This document shows positions 33,190 to 40,163 of a stretch of 51,963 nt of DNA, piece after piece; position 1 is the stretch's first letter; every line of letters starts with the position of its first letter. The position numbers and the translations under genes were made by a program. The DNA is from a bacterium (GTDB lineage Bacteria; Vulcanimicrobiota; Xenobia; Xenobiales; Xenobiaceae), in assembly GCA_017458675.1 (NCBI GenBank), contig JAFTAM010000164.1, positions 1 through 51,963 of the forward strand, in the 5' to 3' direction. The notes under the pieces were generated by a model, which was given only the letters and a program-made list of their open reading frames with translations, was not told where the DNA came from and searched no databases.

Positions 33190-35265
33190 CTAGATTAACG
33201 CCGCTTCCACTCGGGCCAGCTTGCCGGGAATATCCTTGCGCCAGACGGAATCATCGGCGGCCTTAATATCTAAAATACAGACTATAACGCTGTTGTCATG
33301 CAGAGGATAGGCAGCTAAAAGCTGAGTATCGGTTTCTACGCTCAGGCACTGCCAGACGCCCAATCCCAGATCGTTGGAGAGGTAATCGTTGACCCTTCCG
33401 CACATGCGGCTGACCGCCAGAGCCAAATCGTCGCAGTTCGCCGTGGTGGCGTCGACAACTACGTCCTCCTGAACGATTATAGCGTCAAAGACGTTGTCAA
33501 TTACCGTAAGACCGAGCAGAGACTTGTTCAAGTTATCGTTCTTGGCCGGCTTGCCGAAGAATTTTAAGGAGCCCACGCTGCCGCTGTGTATCATCAGCGA
33601 CATGTTGTCGGCATTGGGGTAGATATTGAATTCGCCGTTTTTGTAGGCCGCGCAGATGCGGACAATATTTCCCATAGAGGCTTCCGAAGCGGAGTCGTTA
33701 AGCGAAGCTGTCAGCTCAGGCAGAAGAGCGGCCGCGTCTTCGAAGTTGTCCAGGCTGTCCATGCTTCCCAAAAGCGGCATGCCGTCGTCGCCGACGATCA
33801 TGGCCGAGCAGCCCTCTTCGGAGGAGATCTTGCCCAAAAGCTCCTCCATGGCGTCGGTCTCTTCCATATCGATCATGTAATTGCGCAGCTTCTCGGCGCA
33901 GCCGATAATAATATCGGAAATTTCCGGCATGAAGGTCTGAGCCTCGCCTAATACCTCGATTTCCTCTTCGGCAGCGTCATCCGCGGAATCGGCCTTCTTT
34001 TTGTCCTTAGCTTTGCCGGATAACGCAGAATTGATATCCGCAAAAAGCTTCTCCTCGAGATCGACAGCCGAGCCGTCGGGAGTCTGAAGGAAATATTCGC
34101 CTACAATACTGCCGACGTCCACGCAGGTGAGCTTGTCAAAATCTTTGAGGAAGCGCACAATCATGCGCTTATCCGATTCGGCAGTAACCTTCTTGACGGC
34201 GGCTTCCAGATTATCAAGTTCGTCCACCACCGAAAGATTGCCTTCGCAGGTCTCCGTAAGGCGCAGAGTTTCGGCGTTTACTTTAGAGGGAGATACCGCG
34301 AATACATAATCGGGATGGAAGAACTTGGCCCTGGACATAATCCTGAATACCGAGTCGGCATTGAGACCGCTTTCAGAAACCGTGAGCATCAGCAGCAGGC
34401 CCTTATAGTTGGCGAAAATATCGCAGAAATTGTAATCGGCCTCATAGCGGAACAGAATATGCTCGGGCTTAACGCCGCAGGCCTTCAGAGCCGCGCCGAC
34501 AAAATAGACCAGCCACATATTGTGGACGGCCAGCTTGGCGCCGCCTTCGCTTATGGAAAGAGACTGCACGATCTGTTCGTCGGAAATGGCTTTGCCGCAG
34601 TGGAAGCAGCGGAAACCGCGCTTGGCCGCTTCGTCCAGCGCCGCCAGACTGGAGACGCAGCTCACTTTCTGACCGGTCTTTTTGCAGTAAATCTCAAATT
34701 CGCGGCAGATAATGCCCAGCTCGTCCATCTTCTGCACGTCTTCGCCCACTTCAAAGACCGAGCGTCCCTGAGCGGCCTCGGGCAGAGACACAGATTTTTT
34801 ATTGGCGATAACGCTGAGCAGATCTCTGACGCCTGCATTTTTCATGCATTCCGCCGCTCTGCACTCCCACTCCTCCATGCGCAGAGATTTGGAATCCTCG
34901 CGCAGTAAATTGAAGTAAGGAGAAACCATGCAGTAATCCTCGCACCTGATATCAGGCTCCGCTCTGAGGATGGCCTCTACGGCTTTCTGCAGCAGTCCGC
35001 CCTGCTGATCGTCGCCGTAGGTTTCGCCTATAATCATGGCGTTTTCTTCTTTTATGAAATTGTAGAACACAATTATGCCGTCGGCGGTCATAAATACGTC
35101 GCTGTGAGGAAGTCCGCCGTCGTATTCTCTGCCCAGAAGCTCAAAAAGTCTGGTTCTGCCGCCGGAAATAATCGGCGAAGCCACATGGCTGACGGCGCCG
35201 GCAATAATGCCTTTGATTCTTTCTATATTATCAAACTCAGTAAGCTTTTTACGTATAAACTGCAT
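33190..35265 (-). CDS. Large cytoplasmic protein of unknown function with roadblock-like C-terminal repeats
   Basis: The 691-residue acidic protein has no signal peptide. I recognise no family with confidence. Visible parts are a C-x2-C pair (FRCFHCGKAI, about 219) and a segment reminiscent of a nuclease-like fold without full catalytic residues (HILFRYEADYNFCDIF... LLLMLTVSES, about 265-295). A charged low-complexity stretch follows (KAKDKKKADSADDAAEEE, about 415-432). Two C-terminal segments (about 480-560 and 590-680) have the rhythm of roadblock/LC7 domains (SAMIVGDDGMPLLGSM; DAIIVQEDVVVDAT). Such domains often bind small GTPases. GAGGAG precedes the ATG; it leads the operon with the SPOR gene and ribF. 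Confidence 0.6.
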   Translation of the reverse strand: MQFIRKKLTEFDNIERIKGIIAGAVSHVASPIISGGRTRLFELLGREYDGGLPHSDVFMTADGIIVFYNFIKEENAMIIGETYGDDQQGGLLQKAVEAILRAEPDIRCEDYCMVSPYFNLLREDSKSLRMEEWECRAAECMKNAGVRDLLSVIANKKSVSLPEAAQGRSVFEVGEDVQKMDELGIICREFEIYCKKTGQKVSCVSSLAALDEAAKRGFRCFHCGKAISDEQIVQSLSISEGGAKLAVHNMWLVYFVGAALKACGVKPEHILFRYEADYNFCDIFANYKGLLLMLTVSESGLNADSVFRIMSRAKFFHPDYVFAVSPSKVNAETLRLTETCEGNLSVVDELDNLEAAVKKVTAESDKRMIVRFLKDFDKLTCVDVGSIVGEYFLQTPDGSAVDLEEKLFADINSALSGKAKDKKKADSADDAAEEEIEVLGEAQTFMPEISDIIIGCAEKLRNYMIDMEETDAMEELLGKISSEEGCSAMIVGDDGMPLLGSMDSLDNFEDAAALLPELTASLNDSASEASMGNIVRICAAYKNGEFNIYPNADNMSLMIHSGSVGSLKFFGKPAKNDNLNKSLLGLTVIDNVFDAIIVQEDVVVDATTANCDDLALAVSRMCGRVNDYLSNDLGLGVWQCLSVETDTQLLAAYPLHDNSVIVCILDIKAADDSVWRKDIPGKLARVEAALI

Positions 35266-35438
35266 ATTTCAACAACTCCTCAAAAATGCGAAGCATCTCC
35301 TGACAGCGGCCGAGCCGCCTTCGGCAAAAAAATATCATGTATCTTTTGCATTGTCTGCGAAAATATCCTTTTTAATTAAAGATATTTGCCTTTTGATGAA
35401 AATTTGTCAATAAATATTGAAAGCTATTCAAAAAAGCA

Positions 35439-35467
35439 TTGACAACCATCCTTTTGTGATATAGAAT
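35439..35467 (+). promoter_or_regulatory. Promoter of the HigA/ImmA-type gene
   Basis: TTGACA and TAGAAT are separated by 17 bases, about 70 bases before the start. A further TATAAT lies at about 35509. The 35266-35537 interval otherwise holds no gene; a HigB-type toxin gene is absent. Confidence 0.65.
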
Positions 35468-35537
35468 TCAAAAAAAATACATTTCTATTTTGGAAATTTT
35501 ATATTCTGTATAATATTTCAAAAAGGAGCTAGTTTAT

Positions 35538-36620
35538 ATGGATAATTCAATTGTCAAACATCCAGGCGAAATCTTATATTCCGAAATATCCGAATTGGGA
35601 ATGAAGCAAAAAGAACTTGCTATACGGACAGGAGTTTCGGAAAAACACATATCTATGATTATCAACGGCACAAAGAGTATATCAAATTCTTTTGCCCGTA
35701 AATTAGATATAGCGCTTAATTCTGAAAACGGAACGTGGGCAAAAAAACAAGCAGACTATGATGAATATACTTCTATGCTGGAAGAGAGAAATCACATAAC
35801 CGAAACTGAATTATCTATATTAAAATCTCTTAAAGACGTAGTTGAATATCTTCTTAAAACCGGTATTATGAGAAATCATTGCGGCGAATCTGAAAAAATT
35901 CTCCAGCTCAGAAAAATTCTTTGCGTAAATAATCTGTCAGTTATTCCGCAGATTAGTTATAATGCCGCTTATCGCGCACAAATCACAAAAACTACAAAAA
36001 ATATTGACCCTTATATATTATTTGCATGGCAGAGAATATGTGAAATTCATGCAGAAAACATAATTATTAATCATCCTTTTAATCCGAAAAAATTGCTTAA
36101 AAGCACCCCTGAAATAAAAAGCAAAATGTTTATAGACGATCCGAATTGCATGATCCGCGAACTTAAATTAATTTTTGCAAAATGCGGTATAGCTTTTGAG
36201 GTAGTGCATCATTTCCGAGGCGCGCCGGTACAGGGGTTCATTAAACGAACAATTAATGAAAAAGTAATTCTTTGCTTAACTATTCGAGGAAAAAGGGCCG
36301 ACAAATTTTGGTTCAGCCTGTTTCATGAAATCGGACACCTTCTTAACGGCGATCTCAATAACAGGTTTATTGATTTTGATTCTGTTAAAAGTGAAATTGA
36401 AGAAAACGCAGATGCTTTTGCAAGAGACGCTTTGATAGACCCAAAATTATATAAAGAATTTATCTTATCGGGCGATTATCATAATCTTGATAAAATAAAT
36501 TCTTTTTCACTGTCCGCAGGCGTTCAGCCTTGGATAACTATAGGCCGCCTGCATAACGACGAATGGCTTGACTGGGATATCTATGCCAATATAGCTCCGA
36601 GTTATCAATGGGCAGATTAA
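35538..36620 (+). CDS. HigA-like HTH protein fused to an ImmA/IrrE-type metallopeptidase domain
   Basis: Residues about 8-60 are an Xre/HigA helix-turn-helix (KHPGEILYSEISELGMKQKE; TGVSEKHISMIINGTKSIS). The C-terminal half holds the ImmA/IrrE peptidase signature FHEIGHLLNG (His263, Glu264, His267) and a downstream Glu in EIEENADAFARD. Such proteins act as antitoxins or as regulators that cleave a repressor. No toxin gene of the HigB type precedes it. The gene is AT-rich (many AAA/ATA codons) and unlike the flanking host genes, which points to transfer. AAAGGAG precedes the ATG. Confidence 0.85.
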   Translation: MDNSIVKHPGEILYSEISELGMKQKELAIRTGVSEKHISMIINGTKSISNSFARKLDIALNSENGTWAKKQADYDEYTSMLEERNHITETELSILKSLKDVVEYLLKTGIMRNHCGESEKILQLRKILCVNNLSVIPQISYNAAYRAQITKTTKNIDPYILFAWQRICEIHAENIIINHPFNPKKLLKSTPEIKSKMFIDDPNCMIRELKLIFAKCGIAFEVVHHFRGAPVQGFIKRTINEKVILCLTIRGKRADKFWFSLFHEIGHLLNGDLNNRFIDFDSVKSEIEENADAFARDALIDPKLYKEFILSGDYHNLDKINSFSLSAGVQPWITIGRLHNDEWLDWDIYANIAPSYQWAD

Positions 36621-36656
36621 AATAACATTTGAAAGGAGTAATTTTTCTTTTTTCAC

Positions 36657-36724
36657 AAAAAAAATGCACTGAATGCTGCAACATTCAGTGCAATTAATCC
36701 GAACATCTCTATTCGAACTTCTAC
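36657..36724 (-). ncRNA. Candidate ~68 nt antisense small RNA
   Basis: A minus-strand promoter (36759-36731) would start a transcript near 36724. It ends at an 11 bp perfect stem TGCACTGAATG/CATTCAGTGCA followed by eight T (36692-36657). The 5' end folds as GAACTT-GTAG-AAGTTC. Its first ~27 bases are the complement of a sequence repeated at 36827-36854 in the leader of the DUF4417 gene, so it could pair with that mRNA. No coding frame fits. The dyad would also work poorly as a plus-strand terminator because no T-run follows. Confidence 0.6.
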
Positions 36725-36854
36725 AAGTTCATTATAGTAGATATTCGGCGAACCGTCAATATAACTTGACAGCATCGTAAAGCTGCCGTTCATTTATATT
36801 GACAGCTTCATTAATCAATAAATGTTTCCGAATATCTTATTTGAACTTCTACAA
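36698..36854 (+). repeat. Pair of 28-29 bp direct repeats in the DUF4417 leader region
   Basis: TCCGAACATCTCTATT-CGAACTTCTACAA (36698-36726) and TCCGAATATCTTATT-TGAACTTCTACAA (36827-36854) differ at three positions plus one gap. The left copy is inside the candidate small RNA (opposite strand). The right copy is in the presumed 5' untranslated region of the DUF4417 gene. Two TTGACAGC copies lie between them. Confidence 0.75.
36731..36759 (-). promoter_or_regulatory. Promoter of the candidate antisense RNA
   Basis: On the minus strand, TTGACG (36759-36754) and TATAAT (36736-36731) are separated by 17 bases. Six bases away on the plus strand lies TTGACA (36766-36771), making a GTCAA-TATAAC-TTGAC dyad that could be a shared operator or a divergent promoter pair. 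The plus-strand -10 box is not clear. Confidence 0.7.
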
Positions 36855-36866
36855 CCCATATTAAAG

Positions 36867-36931
36867 ATACCTCGGAAACATTCTGTCCAGGGAATTACGT
36901 CCCTAAGAATGCCTCTGGAGGTATTTTTATT
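36867..36931 (+). promoter_or_regulatory. Folded mRNA leader that sequesters the DUF4417 ribosome binding site
   Basis: Three nested stems are visible: ATACCTC/GAGGTAT (36867-36873/36918-36924), CATTCT/AGAATG (36879-36884/36906-36911) and AGGGA/TCCCT (36889-36893/36900-36904) with an ATTACG loop. The outer right arm contains the Shine-Dalgarno GGAGG (36917-36921) for the ATG at 36932 and is followed by TTTTTATT. The element can therefore block translation or act as an attenuator. It matches no riboswitch class I know. Confidence 0.6.
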
Positions 36932-37657
36932 ATGTATTTATTAAAAGCTATCAGAAAATTCATTAAAGACGTATGGTGGCGGCCTTACATGGTCGAAGGC
37001 GCTGACTTTTCAGCCAACGACATTCCAGTCTGCCCTACTACCGCTTCTGAGGTTCCGACGGACCTTATTACCTATAAAGAAGCCAAAGATATCTATAAAA
37101 AAGAGATACGTAAGGGAAACAAAAATTTTCACCATTCTGCTTTCGTATGTTTCTATGAAGACGATATCAATTTTGACTCTATTACCGGCATTTGGTTTTA
37201 CAGCAGCAAAGCTTTAAAAATCCTAAAGCATTTTGAGGGAATTATTACTCCTGATTTTTCCACCTACCAGGATTTTCCTTATCCGCTTAAACTATGGAAT
37301 ACCTACCGAATGAGAGCCTTCGGCTTTTGGTTTGGGACAATATGCGGAGGCAAAGTCATAAACAACGTCCGCTGGGGAACCGCAGAAACATACGGCTATT
37401 GTTTTGATGGAATTCCTCAAAACAGCGTCGTTGCAATAGGAACAGTGGGAGGCAGTCCGCGCAGGCTCAATGACCGCGCCCGCTTTGAAGACGGCCTGAA
37501 AGAAATGATGACAAGACTTTCTCCGCACACAATCATCGTTTACGGGTCTGCTGCTTATAAGTGTTTTCAAGAGCTTAAAGAACAGGGAATTCAAATCTTT
37601 GCTTATCCCGGCAGAACAACCAAAGTGTTCGCAGAGAGGAGAAAGCAAAATGAGTAA
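36932..37657 (+). CDS. DUF4417 protein
   Basis: The 241-residue protein has the DUF4417 pattern: IITPDFSTYQDFPYPLKLWN, RAFGFWFGTICGGKVINNVR, SVVAIGTVGG and a C-terminal IIVYGSAAYKCFQELKEQGI. DUF4417 genes are scattered through phages and mobile islands, and their activity is not known to me. The N-terminal 90 residues are less conserved. Its ribosome binding site is inside a hairpin, and the next gene overlaps its end by 8 bp, so it is the head of a coupled three-gene unit. Confidence 0.8.
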   Translation: MYLLKAIRKFIKDVWWRPYMVEGADFSANDIPVCPTTASEVPTDLITYKEAKDIYKKEIRKGNKNFHHSAFVCFYEDDINFDSITGIWFYSSKALKILKHFEGIITPDFSTYQDFPYPLKLWNTYRMRAFGFWFGTICGGKVINNVRWGTAETYGYCFDGIPQNSVVAIGTVGGSPRRLNDRARFEDGLKEMMTRLSPHTIIVYGSAAYKCFQELKEQGIQIFAYPGRTTKVFAERRKQNE

Positions 37658-38141
37658 AGGATACAGCGGTCTATTTCATGGAACTATAGGAAGCGCTGCT
37701 ATGGGCAGCGCTGACTATATGAATCCAACTGATAATTTCAGTCAAAATATAAAAAGAAGAAAAGACATTGATGCTAACGGCTTTTATGATATAATTGCAC
37801 ATGGTAAACCTACTTATATTCAAATATATCATAATGGGCAAAAGATCATAATTGATCACAGAATTACCGCAAGTCTATTAAAACACAATAAGCAATATCA
37901 AGGTCAGGGAATACGATTGCTATCTTGCAGTACAGGCCAATTAAATAACGGATTTGCACAAAATTTAGCAAACAAGTTAAATAGACCTGTTAAAGCGCCA
38001 ACTGACATTTTATGGGCATTACCAAACGGCGTATATTATGTAACTGCCGGGAAATTTATGAATGGAAACTATATAGAAGATTTCAGATATCCTGGAAAAT
38101 TTAAGACATTTTATCCACAAAGGGGAAAAATCAATGCATAG
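37650..38141 (+). CDS. Free-standing caspase-like (clan CD) peptidase domain, polymorphic-toxin type
   Basis: The 163-residue protein has the two clan CD signatures, each after a hydrophobic strand: FYDIIAHG (His51) and IRLLSCSTG (Cys93). It continues with GFAQNLANKLNRPVKAPTDILWA. This arrangement is familiar from C-terminal toxin domains of Rhs/WapA-type proteins and resembles CHAT/C80 folds. Here there is no delivery region and no signal peptide, so it would act inside the cell or be a relic. The start at 37650 follows GAGGAG and overlaps DUF4417 by 8 bp. A zinc-ribbon protein overlaps its end by 8 bp. Confidence 0.7.
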   Translation: MSKGYSGLFHGTIGSAAMGSADYMNPTDNFSQNIKRRKDIDANGFYDIIAHGKPTYIQIYHNGQKIIIDHRITASLLKHNKQYQGQGIRLLSCSTGQLNNGFAQNLANKLNRPVKAPTDILWALPNGVYYVTAGKFMNGNYIEDFRYPGKFKTFYPQRGKINA

Positions 38142-38487
38142 ATTTTGCGAAGAGTGCGGCGCGGGAATGGAATGGTTCAGACGCGGCGGCTGCTGCGGCT
38201 GGGAATGCAAAAGCTGCGGCTGGAATGTGGCGACTTCATGGTTTGATCCTATAGAAATGGACCAAACTGCTTACAGCATCTCCCTTGAACCGTCAGAAAA
38301 TCCCGCTGTAAGCAAGCTGAAGCTGACAGCCGAAATAGCCGGCGTCAACTGGCTGGAAGCCAAAAAGCTCATTGAAAACGCCCCTGCCGAACTGTTTCGC
38401 GGCCCGGCCCCGCAGATTAAAGAAATCAGGGACAAGCTCGAAGCCGCCGGCATGAAATATAAAATCGAGCCGGAATTTCCGTATTAA
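38134..38487 (+). CDS. Zinc-ribbon protein with ribosomal L7/L12 C-terminal-like domain
   Basis: The 117-residue protein has an N-terminal zinc ribbon (CEEC at 5-8, CKSC at 25-28) and a C-terminal domain (about 60-112) whose spacing matches the L7/L12 C-terminal domain: LKLTAEIAGVNWLEAKKLIE, then NAPAEL and IKEIRDKLEAAGMKYKI. That fold binds GTPase factors in the ribosome; in isolated proteins it serves as a protein-binding module. Overlap with the caspase-like gene suggests a partner, perhaps an inhibitor. Function is inferred from context only. Confidence 0.7.
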   Translation: MHRFCEECGAGMEWFRRGGCCGWECKSCGWNVATSWFDPIEMDQTAYSISLEPSENPAVSKLKLTAEIAGVNWLEAKKLIENAPAELFRGPAPQIKEIRDKLEAAGMKYKIEPEFPY

Positions 38488-38513
38488 AGTCCGGTCTGCG
38501 TATTGACGTTCCC

Positions 38514-38720: not shown

Positions 38721-40163
38721 TCATTGGGCAGAAATAAATCTCTGTTTCGGACTCTTCGGCTTTTCCGGTACAGTGAGCTGTAATTTGCCGGCTGTCAGAA
38801 GCGGCTGAATGATTGCCGACATTGTATAGTATTGGGACTTGCCCGTAAAGTCAACAAGCTCTTTTCTGCTCCTCGGCGTTTTGCAGAAGAGCAATATCGC
38901 CGCAGACAAGTCAGTTTTGTCTATTTCATCGGATGAAAAATAAATATTATTCCTCAGCGTTACCTCGAAGTCGCCTCTTTTTATATCGAACCTAGGTTTC
39001 GGCAGTCCGGCTTTCTCCATTTCACGAATAACGGTCGAGATACCGGAATATCGGTTTTCCGTTACGTTAAGCAATTCCAGCATGTTTGCCAGCGCCGCAT
39101 TCCTTGTTTCAGGCCTTCCTTTTCCCAGCTGCTTCAGTGAGCCGCCCCCGTAAAGGCCGCCGCGATTGCGTATTACCAAACGATCTCTGTACATTTCCAG
39201 AGAAACCGGCGTATTTTCCGTGTACATACTGTAATCTCTGTGAACAAGCGCATTCAGAATGACTTCACGAACCGCTTTAATCGGATATTCAGGTCTATCG
39301 TTTCTTCTGCCCTCGCCGTCAACGACCGTTTTTGTTCTGCTGTTTTTTCTGATAAACTCTACAGCTTCTTCAAGCATATCCGGAATAGCGCCTGCGATTC
39401 TTGCGTTATCGAGAAAACGGACGTCGTCCTCGGCCGTATCGCCGATCTGCGTACCCGGTACGGCAACCGCGGTTATACACAGCTGCGGAAAAAATGTCTG
39501 AGGATACCTGGAAAAAGTCATGACGCCGGCCAGCGTCGGCTTACCCTCGTAAATCACCCCCATCAGTTCCAGGATATTTTCATCCGATACATTCTCGGAC
39601 AAATTTTTCCTCTCGGTTTTAACCGCTTTGAGATATCCGGCCAGTCTTTCCTGATCAAACAGACTGAGCTTTACACGGTCTACCGTTCGTAATTCATCCC
39701 TAATCCGCCTCCGAAACGCCTCGAAGCTGTAAATTTCATATTCGCTCATAAGCTCGTCTGCATCGCCGACACGAATATACGAACCTTTCAGCCTTCCGGC
39801 GCCCCTGTAAAAAACCGGCCTCAATGAGCGGTCTGCGCCGGGGATCTCAGCTGCCGCGATCATCTTGCCATCGATTTCACATACGGTAATTAATGCTCTT
39901 ACCTTCGGTTCCATCTGATCGCAGGCTTCCATAATCTTCTTCTGAACATCCTCGGCGTTATACACGCCGACAATTTCAAAATCAGGTTTATCGGCTGCGC
40001 CAAAAATTATAATCCCGCCGTCGTCCTGATTTGAGAAGGAAGAAAGAGTATCGTATATCTTTCCGGGGAAACCGCCATGCGCAGCCTTCAGCTCTACAGT
40101 TTGTTTTTCCGTCTTTTGCCTATGAATTTCATTGATCAAACTTCTCAGTTCTTCCGCCTGCAT
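38721..40163 (-). CDS. AlbA_2-domain / HATPase regulator
   Basis: The 480-residue protein begins with an AlbA_2 (Schlafen-like) domain (QTVELKAAHGGFPGKIYDTL; SSFSNQDDGGIIIFGA, about 15-130). It continues with the HATPase-like segment (PIKAVREVILNALVHRDYSM; VIRNRGGLYGG; RNAALANMLELL, about 285-380) and a winged-helix-like C-terminus (TPRSRKELVDFTGKSQYYTMS). Such proteins are putative transcription regulators or stress/defence ATPases. It has its own promoter and upstream repeats suited to autoregulation. Position beside the accessory island allows either a host or an island origin. Confidence 0.85.
   Translation of the reverse strand: MQAEELRSLINEIHRQKTEKQTVELKAAHGGFPGKIYDTLSSFSNQDDGGIIIFGAADKPDFEIVGVYNAEDVQKKIMEACDQMEPKVRALITVCEIDGKMIAAAEIPGADRSLRPVFYRGAGRLKGSYIRVGDADELMSEYEIYSFEAFRRRIRDELRTVDRVKLSLFDQERLAGYLKAVKTERKNLSENVSDENILELMGVIYEGKPTLAGVMTFSRYPQTFFPQLCITAVAVPGTQIGDTAEDDVRFLDNARIAGAIPDMLEEAVEFIRKNSRTKTVVDGEGRRNDRPEYPIKAVREVILNALVHRDYSMYTENTPVSLEMYRDRLVIRNRGGLYGGGSLKQLGKGRPETRNAALANMLELLNVTENRYSGISTVIREMEKAGLPKPRFDIKRGDFEVTLRNNIYFSSDEIDKTDLSAAILLFCKTPRSRKELVDFTGKSQYYTMSAIIQPLLTAGKLQLTVPEKPKSPKQRFISAQ

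Follow-up and report, generated by a model that had tools for sequence, protein, structure and literature searches.

What is the role of a short RNA that is predicted to be read leftward from the region between a HigA-like gene and a gene for a DUF4417 protein, and that covers one copy of a repeat whose other copy lies in the leader of the DUF4417 gene? The question is raised by positions 36,657 to 36,854 of a bacterial contig of 51,963 nucleotides (nt) (JAFTAM010000164.1 of assembly GCA_017458675.1, Xenobiaceae), the whole of which is called the window here. The RNA is best read as a cis-encoded antisense RNA that locks a translational switch situated in the leader of a DUF4417-toxin operon, and we give this reading a probability of about 0.77; in some relatives the switch is probably transcriptional as well. 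The elements concerned, with RBS for ribosome-binding site and SD for Shine-Dalgarno sequence, are:

36657..36724, minus strand (read from about 36724 to 36657): predicted antisense RNA of ~68 nt, 5' tail and hairpin, then intrinsic terminator
roughly 36692-36724, minus strand: antisense domain of the RNA (5' tail and hairpin)
36759..36731, minus strand: promoter of the antisense RNA, TTGACG-17-TATAAT, within the right arm of the unit 1 palindrome
36657..36692, minus strand: terminator, stem-loop 36692-36665 and T8
36698..36726, plus strand: repeat copy 1, the DNA of the antisense domain, TCCGAACATCTCTATTCGAACTTCTACAA
36827..36854, plus strand: repeat copy 2, the antisense target in the DUF4417 leader, TCCGAATATCT-TATTTGAACTTCTACAA
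36824..36879, plus strand: predicted ON hairpin H1, 36824-36838 (largely within the target) with 36864-36879
36863..36928, plus strand: predicted OFF hairpin, H1 3' arm 36863-36876 with 36914-36928, covering the SD GGAGG at 36917-36921
about 36699-36748: unit 1, promoter kept, putative source of the RNA
36824-36879: unit 2, switch kept and promoter decayed, putative target

The minus-strand RNA is predicted from the sequence and strongly supported by its evolution. Its promoter has 11/12 matches and ranks first among 16 promoter-like sites in 3 kb; the terminator (36692..36665) has 12 pairs, 11 of them Watson-Crick, and a 4-nt loop, followed by eight T; the predicted 68-nt RNA, consisting of a 5' hairpin and the terminator, folds with a z of -6.1 against shuffles. 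The promoter and the length of about 68 nt had both been given in the initial annotation and are borne out here; of the perfect 11 bp stem and eight T described there, the eight T and the 11 Watson-Crick pairs stand, the stem being counted as 12 pairs.

A genome scan yielded 57 DUF4417 loci, mostly from rumen and gut Clostridia, in which the RNA was scored automatically as a minus-strand promoter, then a terminator, upstream of DUF4417. By this criterion a matching RNA is present in the window and in 16 fetched loci; further cases are L011, L073, L080 and L112, the last a viral contig (IMG/VR) and the sole locus from a profile scan of viral contigs, where exact-pattern and single-protein scans gave no match. 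The RNAs of these loci are 65-76 nt long, lie on the minus strand and each begin with a 5' tail, which leads into a small hairpin and then the terminator; in most of the other RNA-bearing loci the promoter is near consensus, has 17-nt spacing and occupies the same position. A covariance model (R1; 15 loci, the window among them) scores the window at 60.7 bits and its members at 51-84 bits, and no Rfam family was matched by the antisense RNA at gathering or relaxed thresholds. A DNA search of 58 relatives gave no orthologous leader, only short chance matches in L003 and L004. The covariance-model search of 391 genomes of a related Clostridia class yielded few further cases (L080; L081 doubtful), which marks the RNA as sparse; class-wide, DUF4417 loci belong mostly to a distant subfamily, several with the single-unit switches described below.

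The two repeat copies of the window are identical in 26/29 columns, with two substitutions and one 1-nt gap, which upholds the '28 bp' direct repeat of the initial annotation and the placing of its second copy in the DUF4417 leader. Their alignment score is 48 (maximum 34 across 2000 shuffles); 521 same-geometry placements elsewhere in the window have a mean score of 18.3 and a maximum of 53, so that repeats this similar are uncommon in the window without being unique. An inverted repeat, GTCAATATAACTTGACAGCA / TGCCGTTCATTTATATTGAC, is also seen between unit 1 and unit 2 (36755-36803).

A leader partner of the antisense domain is found in 18 loci (window, L007, L008, L009, L011, L015, L018, L020, L025, L031, L039, L041, L042, L043, L045, L053, L073, L112). 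Between loci the pair varies in sequence (window, ...CGAACTTCTACAA; L007, ...CGAACCTAAGCAATTC; L015, ...CGTAGTCTGGT; L043, ...CGAATCTGAACA), and within any one of them it hardly changes. Differences and pairing energies were taken from 15 non-redundant loci, changes being read from copy 1 to the leader. Pairing-keeping transitions number 32 (15 C>T and 17 A>G, giving G·U), pairing-breaking transitions 2 (2 T>C, 0 G>A) and transversions 5 (p 7e-8). This direction indicates that copy 1 is read as a minus-strand RNA and copy 2 as a plus-strand mRNA. Cognate duplexes sum to -688 kcal/mol; with permuted partners the sum is -385 +/- 32 kcal/mol, and 0/20,000 permutations are as low. Two genomes with two modules each show predicted RNA-leader pairs that are mutually specific and orthogonal: cognate -48.1 / -50.2 and crossed -20.9 / -21.0 kcal/mol in G065; cognate -37.0 / -51.4 and crossed -14.9 / -11.0 kcal/mol in the genome of the window. 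Co-variation and cognate pairing thus support the earlier proposal that a minus-strand RNA is able to pair with the DUF4417 leader; independent divergence of the repeats in relatives, which the initial annotation had named as evidence against its proposal, is the opposite of what was found, as the copies co-vary and their differences keep the pairing.

The same counts bear on the possibility that the repeats are operators, palindromic units bound by the upstream XRE/HigA-ImmA protein, the RNA being incidental. Unit 1 forms a palindrome (CCGAA..TTCGG, fold -16.3 kcal/mol) around the antisense promoter and an XRE gene adjoins in many loci, as such operators would have it; but DNA operators predict no strand bias, whereas the differences run 32:2 toward RNA pairing, the RNA has conserved terminators and promoters, a Fic-type gene without an evident DNA-binding domain can occupy the upstream position (L020, L042, L062, L112), and the RBS-complementary arm described next is left unexplained. 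We consider this reading improbable.

The leader offers a target on which an antisense RNA could act. In 16/16 leaders examined, two mutually exclusive folds are predicted, H1 takes its 5' arm from the target copy, and the 3' arm of H1 can alternatively pair with the RBS or the start codon. The pairing sequences of arm and RBS differ between loci: AAAGAUACCUC/GGAGGUAUUUUU for the window, AUAACCUUCUC/GAGGAGGUUAU for L011 and, over the start codon, UUCUGAGACAU/AUGUCUCAGAA for L020; single-unit loci have the same anti-RBS arm, for example GCAUAAUAGC/GCUAUUAUGC in L062. The arm pairs better with its own RBS than with shuffled RBS in 14/15 leaders (p<=0.03, most <=0.01). A blanket test of leader against RBS in 75 loci gave 25 at p<=0.05 where about 4 are expected; this test is weaker than the arm-specific one because the stretch searched is long. 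On stepwise folding of the window leader, H1 is the minimum-energy fold for transcript ends 36880 to 36930, and the OFF fold wins only after the entire RBS has emerged; when leader and RNA are cofolded, the OFF hairpin results. In L073 a T7 run comes after the OFF stem, beside the start codon, and the stem as modelled could also terminate transcription. As a separate feature of these leaders, a conserved H-type pseudoknot is seen just before the SD in L015 (4930-5003), L018, L020, L031, L032, L039 and L042, with pairings CAGGGYA/URCCCUG and GGCAC/GUGCC and compensatory changes in L020 and L042.

The proposed sequence of events is as follows. On transcription of the leader, H1 would form first and sequester the anti-RBS arm, leaving translation ON. 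The short antisense RNA, presumably constitutive, would pair with the 5' arm of H1 over 28-29 nt and block the hairpin; the freed 3' arm would then pair with the SD/start region, and translation would be OFF. RNase III cleavage of the duplex between RNA and leader may add to the silencing. We infer the sign of regulation from the anatomy: the target supplies one side of a hairpin, and the opposite side is able to pair with the RBS or start instead, so a bound RNA should switch translation off.

Several points weigh against this reading. L031 fails the test of arm against RBS; L032, L057 and L080 have the RNA but no leader repeat; the OFF fold of the window is ~11 kcal/mol better than the RBS-open fold at equilibrium; an mRNA beginning upstream of unit 1 could also be paired perfectly by the RNA there; and transcription-associated mutation could skew the differences in the same way as selection for pairing, though hardly 16:1, a ratio that far exceeds the modest known biases of that process. 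Since OFF is favoured at equilibrium, ON would depend on kinetic trapping, which the antisense RNA has to forestall, as in attenuator logic. The scans by themselves barely exceed chance, with 16 promoters where 9.4 are expected and 4 terminators where 3.2 are expected, and alone are no proof; the promoter and terminator calls are credible because they are conserved in relatives. A functionless chance promoter and terminator beside a decayed duplication, which the near-chance yield of simple scans would allow, is hard to credit in view of the conservation across many loci, the co-variation and the low divergence.

The separate copies of the window find a simpler counterpart in single-unit loci, where one palindrome carries the antisense promoter in its right arm and the RNA is complementary to the left arm; the right arm is complementary to the RBS or start in L062, L036, L017, L006, L097 and L095 (read partly by eye). 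The single-unit form is also represented by L005, the Ruminococcus sp. FC2018 relative, a cultured carrier. The window layout appears to be a duplication of such an ancestral single unit, the classic cis-antisense form: unit 1 would make the RNA, and unit 2, with its decayed promoter, would be the target switch.

Loci without the antisense RNA have a feature of their own. A promoter overlapping the SD/start codon of DUF4417 is present in 12/38 of them (L010, L012, L013, L014, L016, L019, L023, L026, L027, L035, L049, L051), compared with 2/37 loci with the RNA. It is TTGAAA-like, with a 17-nt spacer and a TATAAT-like element; a transcript from there would lack the start, and the promoter is possibly an alternative control or serves the toxin gene only. 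The RNA might, alternatively, be an RNA guide or structural partner of the DUF4417 protein and no regulator at all, for which its frequent linkage to DUF4417, a domain of unknown function, could be cited. The 12/38 loci that carry a start-codon promoter instead of the RNA imply that the protein does not need it, and the 5' domain of the RNA matches its own leader; such a partnership is very unlikely.

The operon that the antisense RNA is proposed to lock, and the gene before it, are composed as follows, with lengths in amino acids (aa):

36932..37657, plus strand: DUF4417 protein, 241 aa, first gene under the leader (PF14386, E 5e-39)
37650..38141, plus strand: polymorphic-toxin-like gene, N-terminus MSKGYSGLFHGTIG, ATGAGTAA overlap with the DUF4417 stop
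38134..38487, plus strand: candidate immunity gene, weak L7/L12 C-terminal-like similarity
35538..36620, plus strand: HigA-type XRE + ImmA/IrrE gene, directly upstream

The DUF4417 protein is modelled confidently as an alpha/beta, TIM-barrel-like fold, for which the best match in the PDB (E 0.014) gives no usable homology. The domain is otherwise known as a phage-enriched one fused to ParB-CTPase folds [PMC12704722], and the literature found on it contains nothing on RNA. Across loci the following gene combines a constant N-terminus (MSKGxSGLFxGTxG) with unrelated C-termini; 23 proteins share the MSK..SGLF N-terminus, and their C-termini include Ntox50 (E 5e-24), YwqJ-like deaminase (1e-5), RadC/JAB (1e-4) and PBECR1 (2e-4). 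The window protein (37650-38141) has no Pfam match and its structure model, with a predicted local distance difference test (pLDDT) score of 40, is not usable; its conserved FYDIIAHG and IRLLSC motifs are reminiscent of His-Cys peptidases. Through the ATGAGTAA overlap the toxin-like gene is likely to be translationally coupled to DUF4417; silencing of DUF4417 should silence the toxin too, because the toxin start overlaps the DUF4417 stop. In most loci the toxin-like gene is followed by a small gene, which in several of them goes with the toxin type; a gene resembling the immunity candidate of the window also follows the same toxin type in L062. No delivery domain was recognised, no dedicated search for secretion or delivery having been made.

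Across loci the upstream gene is usually XRE/ImmA, fused or split, or Fic. Between the HigA-ImmA gene of the window and DUF4417 no plus-strand promoter reaches the scan threshold, and read-through from the HigA-ImmA gene is therefore likely. The HigA-ImmA fusion (35538-36620) matches PADLOC PD-Lambda-2_B (E 2e-23) and has no HigB toxin beside it. The locus (35000-38500) has 33-42% GC amid about 53% and is, to judge from its sequence, an acquired AT-rich island. Adjoining the module, a Schlafen/AlbA_2 + HATPase_c_4 protein (38721-40163, minus strand) is similar to PADLOC pAgo models. The second module of the same genome (L062, contig C127) consists of a Fic gene, a single-unit antisense switch and DUF4417, with toxin and immunity of the same type as in the window.

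This operon bears on what the switch is for. It might serve a type I toxin-antitoxin system of the SymE/SymR or TisB/IstR kind, with DUF4417 or the downstream protein toxic to the cell that makes it and the RNA acting as antitoxin. The proposal is compatible with the switch mechanism and concerns its purpose; the divergent antisense RNA, the structured leader, the mobile-island context, the toxin-like downstream gene and the HigA-like neighbour would all suit it. DUF4417, on the other hand, is a 240-aa phage-associated domain without known toxin similarity and not a small hydrophobic peptide, and the toxin-like gene has a candidate immunity gene of its own, so that we hold this purpose possible but doubtful.

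Beyond the lock itself, a wider picture may be offered tentatively: widespread, undescribed mobile polymorphic-toxin modules, each with an XRE-ImmA or Fic regulator, an antisense switch, DUF4417, an exchangeable toxin and an immunity gene, in which an unstable RNA would hold the operon shut and loss of the RNA would release the toxin, the RNA genes deriving from a duplicated cis-antisense unit and forming module-specific, mutually orthogonal locks. If so, loss of the RNA, for instance when phage or stress halts transcription, would release the operon. The proposed lock gives DUF4417, hitherto merely a name, an operon context and a regulator. Naturally diverged RNA-leader pairs, specific within one cell, would be ready orthogonal RNA switches and would allow a clean test of the way in which a cis-antisense unit, once duplicated, becomes a regulator of its own. 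Polymorphic toxin modules are hereby linked with antisense-RNA leader switches of the kind known from plasmid copy control and type I toxin-antitoxin systems, two fields left unconnected in the papers found.

With polymorphic toxin systems [PMC3482391] the operon shares a constant N-terminus, exchangeable C-terminal toxin domains and adjacent candidate immunity genes, and differs from them in its very short N-terminal motif and in DUF4417 as upstream partner; antisense control of such systems is unreported in the papers found. The type I feature of a non-coding RNA predicted to pair with the mRNA of a partner gene is present; the typical small, usually hydrophobic toxin is absent (241-aa DUF4417), SymE and RalR being exceptions to that type. 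In par of pAD1 (Fst/RNA II) the antisense RNA works through the DNA direct repeats DRa and DRb [PMC7472228]. SD sequestration and poorly conserved repeats that give paralogue specificity are common to both; par has convergent RNAs, a shared bidirectional terminator, repeats over the SD/start and a 33-aa toxin peptide, whereas the RNA of DUF4417 loci is divergent with its own terminator, and no Fst-like gene was seen at the window locus.

What the initial annotation took for a possibly new arrangement has precedents: its minus-strand RNA pairing with the leader stands, the novelty of the arrangement as such is not supported, and it had overlooked the switch, the apparent duplication and the polymorphic-toxin operon. 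In IstR-1/tisB and TimR/timP a divergently encoded RNA is known to pair with the neighbouring gene's leader, IstR-1 over 21 nt, the tisB and timP products being membrane peptides of 29-38 aa [PMC4147584, PMC11295053]. The divergent RNA on a neighbouring leader and the conformational control of translation are alike; IstR-1 targets a standby site and TimR a pseudoknot, and neither frees an anti-RBS arm, unlike the RNA proposed for DUF4417 loci. Antisense switching of a leader between ON and OFF is likewise known, from the repA leaders of RepA_N plasmids (pSK1, pSK41, pSA564 RNA1), where the antisense RNA drives the 5' untranslated region into its OFF form, in which the RBS is sequestered and the structure doubles as a terminator [PMC8129170]. 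The DUF4417 loci resemble them in two mutually exclusive predicted leader folds, OFF sequestering the RBS, and in an antisense RNA complementary to the 5' arm of the ON hairpin; the single-unit loci are anatomically very close, as is the OFF stem with T7 in L073. They differ in controlling a DUF4417-toxin operon and no replication initiator, and thus work alike without being members; in the window, moreover, the antisense gene lies in one unit and its target in another, the two being apparent duplicates, and the pairing is therefore imperfect. Antisense leader control of DUF4417-type toxin operons is unreported in the searchable literature. The mechanism is thus known from plasmid copy control, and what is new here is the RNA family, the class of target and the duplicated layout.
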